IMG/VR virus record: IMGVR_UViG_3300005290_000007
Coordinates: 1-48,568 of that record
Strand: one strand, 5' to 3'
DNA from: a virus
DNA: 48,568 nt
In this document: positions 27,118 to 35,266 of the stretch, one piece after another
Layout of the letters: the number at the start of each line of letters is the position of its first letter
Position numbering within the stretch: the first letter of the stretch is position 1
The notes under the pieces: generated by a model
Seen by the model: the letters and a program-made list of their open reading frames with translations, nothing else
What the model was told of the DNA's origin: nothing
Databases searched by the model: none
Position numbers and translations under genes: made by a program

Positions 27118-27717
27118 TCAGTAAACCATACCCTTTTTAGGTGGTTCGAAATTCTGGTTTCCCGCATTTTTGCCAAACAACGGATCTGTAAAATCTGTAT
27201 TCTTTTTTTCTACAGAAAAATCTGTATTGCTATTTTCTTTTCTTTTACTTTCTTTTACTTTACTTTGCTTCAAATTTTTAACCACTGCTTCGTTTGCTTT
27301 AACCACTGCTTCGTTATTGCTTCCGTTAATTTCAGAACGTCTTGATAGTCCAGACTTTATACCGCCAACACGACCTGCCTCAACCTTAATTTGCCGTTTT
27401 TCTTCCTTTTCTTCTAAATTTCTCAAAACTCGCTCACTCCAGATGTATTTTTCGTCCTCTTGAAGCAGAAAATATTCGTGAAGCAGTGCTTCAATTTGCT
27501 TCACTACAAACTCTTTTTCACACCCAAACTCATGAGCCATACCATCAAATAGCTTCGGGAATTTCTCTAATTTACCACCTGTTTGTTGATGCAGCAACTC
27601 TATAAGACACCAATAAAATCCGTAACCAACCATGCCATGATCGTGAATTAAAGCAGCACATTTAGGATCATGCTGAGCGTTAGAATCGTGTGGGAAATAG
27701 TAAGCATCTTTTTTCAT
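27118..27717 (-). CDS. DUF4373/Lin1244-type replication-associated protein (199 aa)
   Basis: Opens MKKDAYYFPHDSNAQHDPKC, the hallmark K-D-[AT]-x-Y-F-x-H-D-x-N-A start of the Lin1244/Lin1753-like (DUF4373) domain, with GYGFYWCLIELLHQQ following. The region resembles a DnaD/winged-helix replication initiator. The C-terminal half is a low-complexity, lysine-rich linker. The gene follows the primase-helicase (ATGA overlap at 27714-27717), consistent with a role in loading the helicase. Confidence 0.8.
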   Translation of the reverse strand: MKKDAYYFPHDSNAQHDPKCAALIHDHGMVGYGFYWCLIELLHQQTGGKLEKFPKLFDGMAHEFGCEKEFVVKQIEALLHEYFLLQEDEKYIWSERVLRNLEEKEEKRQIKVEAGRVGGIKSGLSRRSEINGSNNEAVVKANEAVVKNLKQSKVKESKRKENSNTDFSVEKKNTDFTDPLFGKNAGNQNFEPPKKGMVY

Positions 27718-29471
27718 GCGTTTAAATATTGACGGGTGAAAGTATCAAATGAATAGCTTGTAAACCCAATATGACCAAGCCATGAGAATCGTATTTTCTG
27801 AACATAAACATCGACCATACCGTTATCAAAATCCCTGTGAATTGAAACACCATTATCTGTTTTATTAAAGAAATGGGCTGATCCAGAAATATCGTACATA
27901 GTAGCAATTGGATATTTACCTTTCTGATCTTTTTGTAGTTTACGGGGGTGAGCTATAATAAAAACATGGGTATCGGTTTTAACAGCAAATTCTTTTATTA
28001 ACGATAACGCTTCAGATATGTATTGTGTTTCGGTATAGCCGTTAGGTACTTTGTGCTCTATATAATTCCAAGGATCAATAACAATTCCTTTAATGCCGGT
28101 TCGTAAAACTAACTCTTTACATTTATCAAGTATACCTTGTATAGTAACATCTATTTGAGAAATATCAATAAATGAAAAATATAGATCAGTTAATCTTACT
28201 CCATCTTCAAAATCATTACTTGACATTCTATGATTTGGATCTTTACGAAAGTTAAAAGATAAGCCTACAAATTTTTCCATCAATTTAGTTACATGAATAG
28301 CGGCAGGATTTTCGAATGATAAGATAGCAAATTTCCATTTATGGTTTTTAGCTAGTGAAGTACTAATATAATCTAAAAACTCCGATTTACCACTACCAGG
28401 ACTACCTGTTATAACAGTCATTTGACCACCAGAGAATGAAAGTAGTTCATCAAACTCTCCAATTCCGGCTGCATATCCTTTAGGGTAACCGTTATTGTAA
28501 TAGTCGGCTACGAGTGGGTATAAATCATCCATTGTAATAACGCCTTGTATTGGCCATCTCTTGGCTTCTGAGACGATATGCTGGATAGCTTGCTTACCAT
28601 GTAATCTGAGAACATCGTTCATGTCCTTACAATCCGGCGGGTATTGGATCATATAGCAACGATCATAACCAAGTCGCCGGGCTAATTCATCCCGAAGGGC
28701 TTTCCCTGGTTCGTCATTATCAGTAGCAATAATAATTTTATCCTTACCGTCGAATGATTGCCAACAGTTATTTAGATACTCTAAATTAAGTTGAGAGTTT
28801 GCCGGGGGTGTGCCATTAGGGACTGATATAACATTTCTTATTCCAGCTTCATGTAGGCTCATGCAATCTATTTCGCCCTCAACGATTACAACTTCGTTTT
28901 CATTTTCAATAGCATCTAAGTTGTAAAATATTGGCTCAGCGTTCTTAGATAATTTAAAATCTTTGTCTTTACCTCTGAATTTAATATTTACTAACTCTCC
29001 TGATCTGTAGTAATTAAAACAAATTACTTTAATCTCACTCTTTGCTTTCGGCATCCATTCGGTCGTTTCTGTTATTCCGAAATGGCGTACTGTACCGGCT
29101 GAAATATTTCTCTTAACAAAGTATTGAATGACCGGATCGGCGGGTTGTTGTGTTCTTGGAGCGGGTTTATCGTATTGCTTGGTATTGCGTTCTTCTATTG
29201 GGATTGAATATTTATTAGCTAGTAGTTTTATAGCTTCAATGTAGTTTATGTTATTGTGTTCTTGAAGAAAGTTAATAGTGTCACCTGATCTACCACAACC
29301 AAAGCATTTATATAAATCTTTCGCTTGGTTAACTTTGAATGATGGGGTTTTCTCATTATGAAATGGACAAAGCCCGGTCATATTAACGCCGTCTCGTTTA
29401 AGTTTTACATAGTCAGAAATTACTTCAACTATATTGGCGGCGGCTTTTATTTCTTCGATGTTGGAGATCAT
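27714..29471 (-). CDS. DNA primase-helicase (585 aa)
   Basis: Three modules are visible. A DnaG-type zinc finger at residues 35-59 (CPFHNEKTPSF ... CFGCGRSGD, ligands Cys35, His38, Cys56, Cys59). A TOPRIM domain with VVIVEGEIDCMSLHEAG (Glu198/Glu200) and IIIATDNDEPGKAL (Asp251/Asp253). A RecA-like helicase domain with Walker A GSPGSGKS at 356-363. This T7 gp4/Twinkle-like layout unwinds DNA and makes primers. The start overlaps the preceding gene by four bases. Confidence 0.95.
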   Translation of the reverse strand: MISNIEEIKAAANIVEVISDYVKLKRDGVNMTGLCPFHNEKTPSFKVNQAKDLYKCFGCGRSGDTINFLQEHNNINYIEAIKLLANKYSIPIEERNTKQYDKPAPRTQQPADPVIQYFVKRNISAGTVRHFGITETTEWMPKAKSEIKVICFNYYRSGELVNIKFRGKDKDFKLSKNAEPIFYNLDAIENENEVVIVEGEIDCMSLHEAGIRNVISVPNGTPPANSQLNLEYLNNCWQSFDGKDKIIIATDNDEPGKALRDELARRLGYDRCYMIQYPPDCKDMNDVLRLHGKQAIQHIVSEAKRWPIQGVITMDDLYPLVADYYNNGYPKGYAAGIGEFDELLSFSGGQMTVITGSPGSGKSEFLDYISTSLAKNHKWKFAILSFENPAAIHVTKLMEKFVGLSFNFRKDPNHRMSSNDFEDGVRLTDLYFSFIDISQIDVTIQGILDKCKELVLRTGIKGIVIDPWNYIEHKVPNGYTETQYISEALSLIKEFAVKTDTHVFIIAHPRKLQKDQKGKYPIATMYDISGSAHFFNKTDNGVSIHRDFDNGMVDVYVQKIRFSWLGHIGFTSYSFDTFTRQYLNA

Positions 29472-29744: not shown

Positions 29745-30221
29745 TCACTTCAAAGATAATATAAAGGCGTCATACCATTGTAAAAATTGGTCAGGTGTGT
29801 AAATAAACTCATACTGGCCCCCTGCTGATCGTTCTAGCTCCTGCTCCTTTAATTGATGTTCTCTTGGTTTATCCCTACCTGCTTTAATTTCAAACATACA
29901 GGACCGCCCGTGAATCGTTGCAGATATATCAGCCGTTCCCTTCCTGGTCATACTATGCATCCATTTCTTAGTACCAAGTATCACACCGCTTGCTTGTTTT
30001 TCGGGTTGCTCTATAAGCCTACCCGATACATTTATACGAGTAGCTCGCCATCCTTCCCATTTAAGAAAGTTAGTTACAAAATTAGTTAGCCCGTTTGCTT
30101 TTGTTATGTCTGGGTATTTAACGGGTAACGTGCCGAAGTCTTTAGAGGATGCAGGGTAAGCAATGAGTTGCCATGCTTCGTATGCAGATTTATAGCGGAG
30201 TTTCCATTGGGGTATGCTCAT
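29745..30221 (-). CDS. VRR-NUC nuclease (158 aa)
   Basis: The C-terminal half shows the VRR-NUC order: TRKGTADISATIHG (G-x-A-D-I, metal-binding Asp), SCMFEIKAGRDKPREHQ (E-x-K plus downstream Gln) and ELERSAGGQYEFIYTP. It belongs to the PD-(D/E)XK superfamily and probably cuts branched or recombination intermediates. In many phages it neighbours helicases, as here, where it overlaps the fusion helicase gene by four bases. Confidence 0.85.
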   Translation of the reverse strand: MSIPQWKLRYKSAYEAWQLIAYPASSKDFGTLPVKYPDITKANGLTNFVTNFLKWEGWRATRINVSGRLIEQPEKQASGVILGTKKWMHSMTRKGTADISATIHGRSCMFEIKAGRDKPREHQLKEQELERSAGGQYEFIYTPDQFLQWYDAFILSLK

Positions 30222-32446
30222 ACTCCTGAAGTATTAAACCTTTGCAAAAACTTATCAATAGAAGAAATATTTCCTTTTGATTGTTCAGCTTCTTTACAAT
30301 TTTCAACTGCTACATTGAAATAAGATTCTTTTAATTCAAACCCAATACCGAAGCGATTTGCTTTGATAGCCTGATAAACTTCGCTGCCAATACCCGCAAA
30401 CGGAGTTAACACATTATCGCCCTCATTACTCCAAAGATGAATAGCACGATCAATAGTATCTAACTGTAGCGGCGCAATATGCTTTTCATCTAAGTCACCA
30501 CGTCCGGGTATTTTGTTCAAAGTATTTGAATAGTTTATATCAGTCCATATTGGCGAAGCATAACGCTGCCAAAGATCAACGGGTAAATAATTTTCTTTTG
30601 TATTATCAGTATCTTGATGAACAACTGGATTAATTGATTCACCCGGCTTACGAAATATAAGTAAGTAGTCGGGAATTCCAACTCTTGACATTGCAGCATC
30701 TTTTTTAATTTGCTTATGTAATAAACCAAGTGCTTTTGTACGCTGCATTTCAGTAACCGGATTCTTCCAGATTGTGACCCTGCTATGATAAATAAACCCC
30801 GCATCTTCAAATGATCTCAATATCATTCCTGAAAAATCTCTTAAACCAATGAAGCCCTCTTTGCCTTTCTGAATAGGTAAGTCCATGCAATGAACGACTA
30901 CATTTCTTCCGGGCTGCAATACCCTTAATAGATCAACCACTAAAAAATTAAAAGCATTAAAGAACTCGTTATAATCTTTTGAATTACCCATATCTTCTAA
31001 TTGATCTGAATATGTATATAGTTCGGCAAAGGGAGGGGAGAACACAGATAATCCTATTGATTCATCAGGTATCTTCTTTATCATTTCAACACAATCACCA
31101 AGCATCAAATGAAAGTTATCTGTCTTAACTTCCTTAAAAGTCCTTGTATGTTTTTCCTGCATGATTTTAGTATTAGTATGTTTTGTCATTTCAGATTGCA
31201 TTTCTTCAAATTGCTGTTCCTTTAATTTTATAGTATCAATAACGTTTGTCATTGTATCGGTAGTAATTATATAAATGTTTACTGGTTTTGTTTGTCCGAA
31301 TCTCCATGAACGCCTGATGCCCTGGTATAATCCTTCAAATGAAAAATCAAGCGATGCGAATACCTGGTTATAGCAGTTCTGATAATTCATCCCGAAAGAT
31401 GCGATCTTTGTTTTTGTTATTAATACTCTGAATGAACCGGCAGCGAAACCAAGTAGGTTATATTCTTTTGTTTCGTTATCGTCGGATCCTTTTACCTCGA
31501 CTGCATCGGGTATTAGTTTTCTTAATAGTTCGCCTTCTTCATTTTGTTTAATCCAAACTATAAATTGTTCACTGGATTTATTTATAGTATCTGCCGCTTG
31601 CTGTAAACGATCAATCTTTGTTAGTCTTAATTCTGCGTTGAAGTTGGTTGCCGATACCGCCGTTTCATTTATTGGAATCCAATCGTGACGCTGCCCGGTT
31701 TTAATGCAATGTTCTATCATTTTTAATTCAGGAAGATCGAATCCTGGTTGCTCAAATCCAATGTCTTTAGGATGCTGAAACATTATAGACCACGACGAAC
31801 ACCATTGCCAGAAAAGTTTTATTGCAGGTCGTTTAAGCCTCCATTTTTGTGTTTCACCGGCATCGTGAACGAAGTACATTGATAACATTTCATTCCTGCT
31901 CATAACGTCTAAGAACTCTGAATGATTGCCCAATTCCATCGGGTCATTTGGCGAAGGGGTTGCAGTACAACAAAGTTTATAAGGAGTATGTACAAATTTT
32001 TCTATTATTAAATTCCTATATGCACCTTCAAAGTTTTTTAATATTGAGCTTTCATCCAACACAACCCCGCCAAATAGAGAAACATCAATATTATCTAACT
32101 GCTCATAGTTGCTTATCTGTATTGGGTGATCGCTTCCGTCATACCGTTTAACGTCAATATGAAACTTGCTACCCTCTTGTATAGTTTGCCCCGATACAGC
32201 GAGAGGTGCTAAGATCAAAACTGGTTTCCCGGTATGTTTGTAAACTTCATTTGCCCAAACTTCCTGCATTAAAGTTTTACCAGTCCCACAGCCTGAAAAG
32301 ATTGCAAACTTGCCCGCCTTGAGTGCTTTGGTTACAACATATTTTTGAAAGGGGAATAATTCATCCGACAACGATTCGGGTTTGACATCGAATCCTGAAT
32401 GAATATGTTGCTTTCGTTTTTGTTCGAGAAATGATTCGTAGGTCAT
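30218..32446 (-). CDS. SF2 helicase fused to DNA N4/N6-methyltransferase (742 aa)
   Basis: Residues 1 to about 410 are a Snf2-like SF2 helicase: Walker A FSGCGTGKT (to Thr58), motif II VLDESS (Asp131-Glu132), motif III CTATPSPND, and motif VI YQGIRRSWRFGQTKPV. Residues about 440-720 are a DNA methyltransferase with MLGDCVEMIKKIPDESIGL, catalytic SPPF at 470-473, and late VLTPFAGIGSEV, the SAM motif placed at the C-terminus as in beta-class N4/N6 enzymes. One polypeptide could translocate on DNA and methylate it. The ATG overlaps a 46-codon gene (ATGA). Confidence 0.9.
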   Translation of the reverse strand: MTYESFLEQKRKQHIHSGFDVKPESLSDELFPFQKYVVTKALKAGKFAIFSGCGTGKTLMQEVWANEVYKHTGKPVLILAPLAVSGQTIQEGSKFHIDVKRYDGSDHPIQISNYEQLDNIDVSLFGGVVLDESSILKNFEGAYRNLIIEKFVHTPYKLCCTATPSPNDPMELGNHSEFLDVMSRNEMLSMYFVHDAGETQKWRLKRPAIKLFWQWCSSWSIMFQHPKDIGFEQPGFDLPELKMIEHCIKTGQRHDWIPINETAVSATNFNAELRLTKIDRLQQAADTINKSSEQFIVWIKQNEEGELLRKLIPDAVEVKGSDDNETKEYNLLGFAAGSFRVLITKTKIASFGMNYQNCYNQVFASLDFSFEGLYQGIRRSWRFGQTKPVNIYIITTDTMTNVIDTIKLKEQQFEEMQSEMTKHTNTKIMQEKHTRTFKEVKTDNFHLMLGDCVEMIKKIPDESIGLSVFSPPFAELYTYSDQLEDMGNSKDYNEFFNAFNFLVVDLLRVLQPGRNVVVHCMDLPIQKGKEGFIGLRDFSGMILRSFEDAGFIYHSRVTIWKNPVTEMQRTKALGLLHKQIKKDAAMSRVGIPDYLLIFRKPGESINPVVHQDTDNTKENYLPVDLWQRYASPIWTDINYSNTLNKIPGRGDLDEKHIAPLQLDTIDRAIHLWSNEGDNVLTPFAGIGSEVYQAIKANRFGIGFELKESYFNVAVENCKEAEQSKGNISSIDKFLQRFNTSGV

Positions 32447-32602: not shown

Positions 32603-33610
32603 TTACGATTTAGCACTCCCTAAAAAACAAAACCATTCTTCCCCATCCTGAATGATTAAACAATTACTATTTGTTTTTGCCTTCACAACTCCCGAAGGAA
32701 CTGTTTTAAGAGCAGGAACAATAGCACGACTATTAAATGTAAATTCATCCGGTGTACCAATACACTCATATTCTGCATCAATAGAACGTGAGTAAGAAGC
32801 ATCATTAAGCTGCAATGACGAACCATTCATGGTGCAGGTTGCTATTTGCGATTGTGAAATATTATTAGCATCGTTGCAGAAAGATATTAATTCAGATACA
32901 TTGAATGAAAATTCCTTTCCCGGTAATTGCAATCTACTTAACACTTGATCGAGTGATGTTGGTTTTGCTTCTATCTTAGTAAAGATGTAGGTAAATCCAG
33001 GCTGATAAAAAACGTGATGATTAGGAAGATCTGAGAATTCCAATTCATCAGATGGTAATACGCCTATTTCATCGGGGCGAAGTAATACAATGGGCATATT
33101 ATTAAACCCACCATTGATATAAAAGAATTGTGGATTGAACGCCGCAATATTATCTTTCGTTACTTGCACAAAAGACATTGCTTCTGCTTCACCTACAAAT
33201 TTTGATGCGGTATTAATTGCTTTTAACTGATCTGAATTGAATTTATATATTTCAGCTTCTTGTATATCTGGAATAACAGGGAAAGTGTTTATAGTTTCAG
33301 TCGGTAGTGTAACTTTCGATTTACCGTATAATAATTTTAAGTTAGTCCCTTCCTGAACGATCTCGATAAACTCAGACTTTGTAGAACCGGAAATAGTTGT
33401 CAATGTATGTTCGTCAATTAACAATTCCGCATCTTCGCCCTCGTAATCCACCTGGCCTATAATAGTTGCTTCCAAATTTGATTTAGTTATAAGACAAATA
33501 CCATTATTGATAACGATCTTTAAATTAGCCAATACAGGTAATTGATTTGATCGTTGAATCTTTGATGCCTTAGTCGTGAAGTTCCTTAGTGAAGTAGTGT
33601 TTAATTTCAT
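32603..33610 (-). CDS. DNA polymerase III beta-type sliding clamp (335 aa)
   Basis: Resembles DnaN: QLPVLANLKIVINNGICL followed by TKSNLEATIIGQVDYEG corresponds to the first-domain LPILxNL...LxxTxxDLE pattern. ISGSTKSEFIEIVQEGTNL, later VSELISFCNDANN, then EYECIGTPDEFTFNSRAIV and a C-terminal WFCFLG strand fit three similar domains. A ring clamp tethers DNA polymerase. No polymerase gene is visible here, so it may recruit the host replicase. It is separated from the DnaA-like gene by a 403-bp structured noncoding region. Confidence 0.85.
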   Translation of the reverse strand: MKLNTTSLRNFTTKASKIQRSNQLPVLANLKIVINNGICLITKSNLEATIIGQVDYEGEDAELLIDEHTLTTISGSTKSEFIEIVQEGTNLKLLYGKSKVTLPTETINTFPVIPDIQEAEIYKFNSDQLKAINTASKFVGEAEAMSFVQVTKDNIAAFNPQFFYINGGFNNMPIVLLRPDEIGVLPSDELEFSDLPNHHVFYQPGFTYIFTKIEAKPTSLDQVLSRLQLPGKEFSFNVSELISFCNDANNISQSQIATCTMNGSSLQLNDASYSRSIDAEYECIGTPDEFTFNSRAIVPALKTVPSGVVKAKTNSNCLIIQDGEEWFCFLGSAKS

Positions 33611-34013
33611 TGTAAATTATTATGGAGTATATTAATGTTATTAAAAATAAAACTGCTGATAGAATAAAAATAGTTAACATGGGGTAGGGGGTTATAAAAT
33701 GCCGGTCTTTCCCGGCTGTCAGCACGATTATTAATATAAGGTTTGCCAAATCTCACGCTTGCGATGCACGCATTGGGATGGCAACCCCTTCGAGACTTCC
33801 CTTATACCCGTTGCCGTTTGACTGCGACGGTCGGATTTCCTTCTTTAAAGCGGGGCAGTTACTATCTTTGCGATGGCTAACTATATCACAAGATTGCGAA
33901 CCTTGATTTTTGTTTTCCCCCGCTTAATCTATTAAAGAGCTAATTTTATCCAGCCGGTAAGCCTGTTAATAATCTTTAGTACTGTTTAGATTTAACTCCC
34001 GGCTGGAATGAGT
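33611..34013. other. 403-bp noncoding region between dnaA-like and dnaN-like genes; origin or structured-RNA candidate
   Basis: The longest gene-free stretch in the replication module and locally GC-rich. Inverted repeats: GCCGG/CCGGC at 33701-33716, AAGCGGGG/CCCCGCTT at 33848-33855 and 33918-33925, and CCAGCCGG/CCGGCTGG at 33950-33957 and 33999-34006. A minus-strand frame from 33923 to 33753 is open but has no usable start codon. TTATCCAGC at 33946-33954 matches 7 of 9 bases of a DnaA box; no perfect box was found. The flanking genes suggest an origin. Confidence 0.5.
33786..33809. repeat. Island B core related to island A
   Basis: The 24 bases at 33786-33809 match 25669-25692 at 18 positions without gaps (both begin CCC and end TACCC), and both are followed on the same side by a related CACGCA[AT]T sequence. 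Both lie in GC-rich, fold-prone stretches of an AT-rich genome, and both sit within a 171-bp open minus-strand frame. Similarity is modest and could be chance. Confidence 0.35.
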
Positions 34014-34379
34014 TTATGATAATTGGGTTTCTAAGAATCTTACTTTACTTTGAAAGTCCTTTTCTGTTTTTATTAAATCTTCACATCTACGAATACCATA
34101 TATAACTGAACTATGATCACGGTTAAACATCACTCCAATATCGACCAATGTCATTTTAGTAAACTTCTTTAGCATATACCACATGATAAACCGTGAATCA
34201 GAAACATAGTAAGCTCTTACATTAGATGTCATCTTTTCAACTGTTACACCTGTGAAATCGGTTACTATCTGAATTACTTTATCTAAGTTAGAATAAATAT
34301 GAAAAGATACCCGGTTCATTTCAGGTCGTAGTCCAGGCATTGCCATATATGAGATTGATGCTATGTCATAGGTTTTCAT
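34014..34379 (-). CDS. Stand-alone DnaA domain IV protein (121 aa)
   Basis: The C-terminal half reads SDSRFIMWYMLKKFTKMTLV, then DIGVMFNRDHSSVIYGIRRC. RDHSSV (residues 87-92) is the DnaA-box recognition signature (RDHTTV in DnaA), preceded by the usual helix and L-x-x-I-G-x-x-F turn. The AAA+ domain of DnaA is absent. The N-terminal 50 residues may be a separate small domain. It should bind DnaA boxes in host or phage DNA, either to open the phage origin or to compete with host DnaA. Coupled to the Sak4-like gene (ATGA). Confidence 0.88.
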   Translation of the reverse strand: MKTYDIASISYMAMPGLRPEMNRVSFHIYSNLDKVIQIVTDFTGVTVEKMTSNVRAYYVSDSRFIMWYMLKKFTKMTLVDIGVMFNRDHSSVIYGIRRCEDLIKTEKDFQSKVRFLETQLS

Positions 34380-35266
34380 ACCGTTTGTTTTTTAGGTCTT
34401 AATTCCGCTGTACGTTTTGAAAACATTGCTTTGAGTTTCTCATCTTCGTTGACTGTAGCGATATGGGAGTTGTAGAGGTCGGATAGTTTGGCGATTGTGT
34501 CCATTGCGATGACTTCTTTCTGCCATACTTCGTAGAAGTCTGCGGCTTGGTTGTTGGTAGGCAACCCGTTCTTAACGGGCGTTATACTACCAGTCTGACA
34601 CCACTTTAATATTTGTTTACCAGTTTCAGCAGACGGTAAGAATTGCGGCTTATTCATAAACATATTTGTTCTATCCTTTGAAGTGGTCGCTTGTTGTTTC
34701 ATATCAAGATCGAAAACAACAGTTAGGTCATATTCCCACCCCTCACGGGTTATTGCCTTTAATCCAACTTTCTCAGGAACTTGTTTACCGTTTTTTTCAA
34801 CCAATACATAATCTGTTTTTGTTCTTAGTGTGCAAATAACATGGCACTTACTTTGTAAAATAGCCTCAACAAATTTATTATGTCTTGGTGTAACCTTACC
34901 CCAATTAGTAAAACTATTCCCTGTCATGTTGCTATGGGTTTCCAGGATGCCGCCTTTGCCTTCCCACTCATGCGAAACGCTATCAACTATTATAACTTCC
35001 ATTCCTGCGCTTTCGGCATCTTTAATAGCCTCAATATAGGATTCAGGAGTAAATGGGGGCGTTAATGTTATTACGTTATACTCACCCAAGTTGGAATATA
35101 ATTCACCTGATCCATTCTCTGTATCTATGAGCAGGATTTTATTCCAGTCATTGCATAGACCGTATGCGGTTAATAAACTTGACATTGTTTTCCCTGATCC
35201 TGCCGGGCCGGCGAAGCCAAGTTTTATTTTTACCTGATGCCGTGAGGCTTTTCTGATTGTTGACAT
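34376..35266 (-). CDS. Sak4-like RecA-fold ATPase / single-strand annealing protein (296 aa)
   Basis: Walker A GFAGPAGSGKTMSS (Gly20-Thr27), Walker B MEVIIVDSVSHEWEG (Asp95), then TPRHNKFVEAILQSKCHVI and CTLRTKTDYVL. This is the AAA_24/Sak4 pattern, a RecA-core ATPase used by phages for homologous annealing. The C-terminus holds a short helical region (LSDLYNSHIATVNEDEKLK) seen in the family. It is encoded between a methyltransferase and the DnaA-IV gene. Confidence 0.85.
   Translation of the reverse strand: MSTIRKASRHQVKIKLGFAGPAGSGKTMSSLLTAYGLCNDWNKILLIDTENGSGELYSNLGEYNVITLTPPFTPESYIEAIKDAESAGMEVIIVDSVSHEWEGKGGILETHSNMTGNSFTNWGKVTPRHNKFVEAILQSKCHVICTLRTKTDYVLVEKNGKQVPEKVGLKAITREGWEYDLTVVFDLDMKQQATTSKDRTNMFMNKPQFLPSAETGKQILKWCQTGSITPVKNGLPTNNQAADFYEVWQKEVIAMDTIAKLSDLYNSHIATVNEDEKLKAMFSKRTAELRPKKQTV

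Follow-up and report, generated by a model that had tools for sequence, protein, structure and literature searches.

The window, a stretch of 48,568 nt from an IMG/VR record, carries a gene for a stand-alone DnaA domain IV (DnaA-IV), an intergenic gap and a beta-sliding clamp gene, in that order of transcription on the minus strand. In our reading, which we hold at a probability of about 0.6, this locus belongs to the early replication/recombination operon of a tailed phage of Bacteroidota, the origin of which probably lies in a replication initiator gene. The dnaA-IV/clamp locus is no copy of a bacterial origin. The replication start of the phage most likely resides inside the initiator gene at 27118–27717, 6–7 kb from the dnaA-IV locus.

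Judged by its sequence relatives, the window is a phage of Bacteroidota, since its nearest terminases are those of Flavobacterium phage 11b and Cellulophaga phage phi10:1 and its primase-helicase also occurs in genomes of Saprospiraceae and Chitinophagaceae, on one contig each. The Chitinophagaceae contig has a dnaA-IV gene as well. The window has no end repeats, and the record may therefore be incomplete. The main genes occupy the minus strand from about 1 to 36 kb. An ATPase gene (AAA_24/phrog_1366, 34376–35266, minus strand) belongs to the same operon as dnaA-IV (34014–34379, minus strand), which it overlaps by 4 nt; this ATPase is unrelated to the AAA+ domain of DnaA. The 403-nt gap (33611–34013) and the clamp gene (32603–33610, minus strand) follow, and profile matches identified a helicase fused to an N6/N4 DNA methyltransferase (30218–32446, minus strand) and the primase-helicase (27714–29471, minus strand). 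Our ORF analysis agreed with the coordinates, gene calls and gene order given in a preliminary description of this DNA. Searches with the DnaA-IV protein or the clamp alone yielded no close relatives; relatives were reached, and picked, by similarity of the primase-helicase.

The initiator gene and its iterons

The gene at 27118–27717 (minus strand) encodes a Lin1244-type replication initiator (PF14297; phrog_2562, replication initiation protein). Within its 600 bp, the hexamer GAAGCA/TGCTTC occurs eight times, compared with 0.66 expected copies (Poisson 5e-7). When the gene was recoded synonymously 5000 times, eight copies were never reached (mean 1.4, maximum 5), and the best result over all 6-mers in the gene corresponds to P<0.001. 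Outside the initiator gene, no 250-bp segment contains more than three copies. The iterons are arranged in two clusters: the first (27462–27502) comprises inverted copies at 27462, 27480, 27487 and 27497, and the second (27266–27323) has copies at 27266, 27286, 27307 and 27318, including an 18-nt perfect repeat with a spacing of 21. An AT-rich (78%) purine-strand stretch at 27218–27267 adjoins the iterons as a candidate unwinding element. At this gene, the GC skew of genes on the same strand shifts from about -0.15 to -0.06; there is no such shift at 33.6–34.0 kb, where an extremum had been anticipated. The in-frame iteron copies could partly reflect repeats in the protein. However, the iterons lie 10, 11, 13, 20, 22 and 31 nt apart, distances that do not correspond to whole numbers of codons. 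A purely protein-repeat cause is excluded by values such as 10, 11, 13, 22 and 31.

The two-cluster layout is constant between phages, whereas the repeat sequence varies. A related record, L055 (IMGVR_UViG_3300022910_000007), has the same layout with AATCGAAGCA as the repeat, and in a group of others (L068–L076, L088, L132 and L134), which share the layout, the repeat is CGAACGCA/CGCAATGC and its offsets are constant. Over 71 related loci, repeated 8-mers are seven-fold enriched in the initiator gene: an 8-mer occurring at least three times was found in 15.8% of 250-bp windows inside the gene and in 2.2% of those elsewhere. The arrays pass our repeat threshold in 22 of the 71 loci, and in 12 loci the top repeat score, with 4–5 copies, falls in the initiator gene. 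Two Baltivirus phages, phi13:2 and phi19:3, contain a 12-nt tandem repeat at a distance of about 1.9 kb from dnaA-IV, in a gene that neighbors a DnaC-like gene; this repeat is weaker evidence because its period is in frame.

A large group of Bacteroidota phages probably has origins of the lambda-O type, marked by these iteron arrays within Lin1244-type initiator genes. As in the lambda O gene with ori-lambda, the window and its relatives have iterons inside the initiator gene and an adjoining AT-rich stretch. Unlike lambda O, the initiator is of the Lin1244 type (PF14297), the iteron sequence is unrelated, and the helicase-primase is encoded by the phage. By analogy with lambda O/ori, the initiator would bind the GAAGCA iterons within its own gene, opening of the AT-rich stretch beside them would follow, and the primase-helicase of the phage would be loaded. 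Such arrays would make the origin position computable in many phages that have not been cultured.

The gap between dnaA-IV and the clamp gene

The 403-nt gap is specific to the lineage. In L055, the dnaA-IV and clamp genes overlap by 4 nt, and motifs conserved among relatives, which would have been expected from an origin, have no counterpart there as the gap itself is absent. In L056, with a 75% identical primase, dnaA-IV overlaps a downstream gene for 491 residues and the clamp is absent, presence and absence calls in IMG/VR being sensitive to fragment ends. The nested inverted repeats of the preliminary description do exist (9-bp arms at 33949–33957/33999–34007 and 8-bp arms at 33848–33855/33918–33925), but the folding of the whole gap is not notably above that of shuffled sequences (z of -1.5 for the minus strand and -0.7 for the plus strand). 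Its description as non-coding holds for ORFs of at least 60 residues. A possible hydrophobic ORF of 36 residues (MLTIFILSAVLFLITLIYSIIIY..., 33570–33680, minus strand), read within a 59-residue frame, overlaps the clamp start and could encode a small membrane peptide. Searches of the gap for tRNA, tmRNA and Rfam families, as well as for iteron-like repeats, were negative, and no GC-skew extremum was observed at 33.6–34.0 kb. There are no DnaA boxes in the gap and none within 2 kb; the whole window contains no exact box and four boxes with one mismatch, against 15.5 in composition-matched permutations.

The hairpin CTGACAG-CCGG-GAAAGA-CCGGC at 33701–33722 on the minus strand, which reads CTGACAGCCGGGAAAGACCGGC from 33722 to 33701 and is followed by ATTTT, resembles a terminator. 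The general motif CTGACAG-NNNG-GAAAGA-CNNNC was present in more than 100 phage contigs among the matches listed from a scan of viral contigs with CTGACAGnnnGGAAAGAC (including L129:355-376, L135:3009-3030 on the minus strand, and L137–L255). Among the loci collected, 114 of 128 pattern matches have a perfect 5-bp stem with varied but matching bases, and the control with permuted letters gave one weak hit. The copies are mostly intergenic, oriented along the gene strand and often located beside tRNA genes; 38 of 101 are found just upstream of a start codon. The hairpin has no Rfam entry, and the string was not found in the literature searched; it may represent a novel RNA element of phages. In one viral contig, the motif is preceded, at a distance of about 50 nt, by a HEARO RNA (Rfam 119.9 bits; L146:657-896, minus strand).

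The chances are about even that the gap is a boundary between transcription units with a structured leader or small RNA, the terminator-like hairpin and a promoter for the clamp gene, which is compatible with an origin in the initiator gene. The hairpin followed by ATTTT and the intergenic, gene-strand placement of the motif in many phages are in line with this explanation. It is opposed by the lack of a convincing promoter in the gap, where the promoter count is close to the shuffle expectation, and by the upstream part of the gap, for which no relatives were found; the hairpin is the sole piece of the gap that has relatives.

The DnaA domain IV protein

The 121-residue protein is the helix-turn-helix domain IV of the DnaA family, as the preliminary description had proposed. 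PF08299 is its sole Pfam match over the cut-off (59.6 bits; cut-off 31.5), and an AAA+ domain III with Walker motifs is absent from the ORF. The AlphaFold model, which bears out the expected resemblance to DnaA domain IV, shows the DnaA DNA-binding fold for residues 31–120 with a pLDDT of about 95. Its core superimposes on the DNA-binding domains of the DnaA/box complexes 3pvp and 1j1v with an r.m.s.d. of 1.3–1.4 Å and TM scores of 0.86–0.87 (Foldseek). The fold and most of the DNA-contact residues are those of bacterial DnaA. However, the protein is devoid of domains I–III and consequently of ATP-dependent oligomerization, DNA unwinding and DnaB loading.

Base contacts of DnaA are made by residue 399 and residues 432–435 (PMC5043019). 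The window protein retains the base-contact residues as R55 and as DHSS at 88–91; by alignment, R55 and H89 are equivalent to R399 and H434 of E. coli. Among the aligned stand-alone viral copies, to which the window protein is 17–30% identical, R63 is invariant and R55 and H89 are conserved in at least 90%. Helix 5 retains its D-H pair in the two nearest relatives as well, which have DHTT. F64 of the window protein occupies the position of Q408 in most DnaA proteins, and the DNA specificity may have shifted given this replacement.

Residues 1–30 are predicted to be disordered. This N-terminal tail (34290–34379, minus strand) contains a Y..xPG(L/M) motif, which is kept in the nearest relatives (L055:4095-4180, L056:4959-5045 and L128:250-337, the last on the minus strand) and is possibly a short protein-binding motif.

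Stand-alone DnaA-IV in other phages

Stand-alone DnaA-IV is an already known and common kind of protein in Bacteroidota phages, with a length of about 130–160 residues and the label "DnaA protein" or "replication initiation protein" (PMC4615864). It is annotated in the Cellulophaga phages phi10:1 (gp034), phi19:1 (gp042), phi13:2 (gp011), phi18:3, phi46:3 and phi19:3, in the Polaribacter phages P12002L (P12002L_0046), P12002S, Freya (Freya1_53) and Danklef, and in the Tenacibaculum phage Gundel_1 (Gundel1_36); Leeuwenhoekiella phage Arctus has it as well. Their neighbors in the annotated phages are genes for RecT, NinB, HNH, helicase loader and methyltransferase proteins. As in the window, the proteins of the Cellulophaga, Polaribacter and Tenacibaculum phages consist of domain IV only and are encoded in a recombination/replication module; unlike in the window, no beta clamp gene adjoins them in the phages examined. 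A DnaA-IV match was obtained in 20 of 40 related records (18 over the cut-off), which does not represent a frequency because the records were chosen partly for having such hits. Our literature search found no papers on phage-encoded DnaA domain IV. The names in use imply initiation, despite the absence of every initiating part from these proteins.

We discarded the DnaA-IV hits in five fecal "phage" records (L003–L007), which turned out to be full-length bacterial DnaA on contaminant contigs. These GenBank entries, named "Bacteriophage sp." (MT837266, MT838540, MT837747, MT839331 and MT837552), appear to be contamination with bacterial chromosomes.

Possible roles of DnaA-IV

DnaA-IV most likely serves the early replication operon as an accessory protein that binds DnaA boxes, a sequence-specific DNA-binding protein devoid of ATPase and helicase-loading parts. 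Two roles had been suggested for it, recruitment of host DnaA to phage DNA or displacement of DnaA from the host origin. DnaA interacts with itself via domains I and III. As both are missing, recruitment is unlikely. Displacement of DnaA from host boxes is our tentative preference, since the base contacts are kept and no phage sites are visible. DnaA-IV would then occupy DnaA-box-type sites (TTATCCACA) mainly in the host, at oriC and dnaA-controlled promoters, in competition with host DnaA. Interference with host initiation has a precedent by other means, as DnaA is known to be inhibited by lambda P and by the yfdQRST genes of CPS-53 (PMC4776307). This analysis sets DnaA-IV apart from the actual origin candidate and offers a testable idea of host interference.

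A possible, less favored role is that of a repressor, activator or origin-accessory protein acting on diverged, phage-specific sites. In the annotated phages examined, DnaA-IV is encoded among the replication/recombination genes of the phage itself. This location, the fast divergence of the viral copies, phenylalanine at the contact position Q408, and the lack of DnaA-box enrichment in carrier phages all argue for such phage-side sites. On the other hand, the 17 carriers show no repeated candidate site near the gene, except for the in-frame array of the two Baltivirus phages 1.9 kb away, and helix 5 retains its base-contact residues, the two nearest relatives having exactly DHTT. Clusters of DnaA boxes near dnaA-IV were found in none of the 17 carriers; the one cluster detected (G009) is far from the gene.

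Depletion of DnaA boxes was considered as a signature of phages with DnaA-IV and rejected, as 17 carriers did not differ from 15 non-carriers (p = 0.43 and 0.91). The shortage of boxes in the window alone is therefore no proof of host targeting.

The third explanation, in which a phage origin in the gap imitates dnaA-oriC-dnaN and is bound by DnaA-IV to recruit host DnaA, is highly improbable. In its favor are the gene order of partial dnaA, gap and dnaN (the two genes also being neighbors in one relative), the DnaA-IV fold, and the gap itself, which does span 403 nt and includes some inverted repeats. However, this gap has no DnaA boxes, skew turn, iterons or conservation, it is missing from L055 with both genes, strong iterons reside in a separate initiator gene (27118–27717), and domain IV lacks the self-interaction parts of DnaA.

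The beta-sliding clamp

The preliminary assignment of the 335-residue protein as a beta clamp was supported by matches to PF00712 (34.7 bits), phrog_947 (processivity factor) and, by sequence, beta clamps in the PDB, which identify it as a divergent phage clamp. The AlphaFold model from two sequences is poor (mean pLDDT 41); in residues 230–332, the only part of moderate quality, strands and helices follow one another much as in a clamp. As no phage polymerase was recognized among the proteins scanned, a part of the window ORFs, the clamp would serve DNA polymerase III of the host.

It is rather doubtful that dnaA-IV and the clamp gene constitute a two-gene cassette for replication take-over. 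In such a cassette, a domain unable to open DNA would fill the DnaA boxes of the host and block host initiation, the phage clamp would divert host polymerase III, and the phage would start from its DnaA-independent iteron origin. The special feature of the window is the clamp adjoining dnaA-IV, which we found in one other record only: L055, the sole relative with both genes, encodes a clamp of 61% identity.
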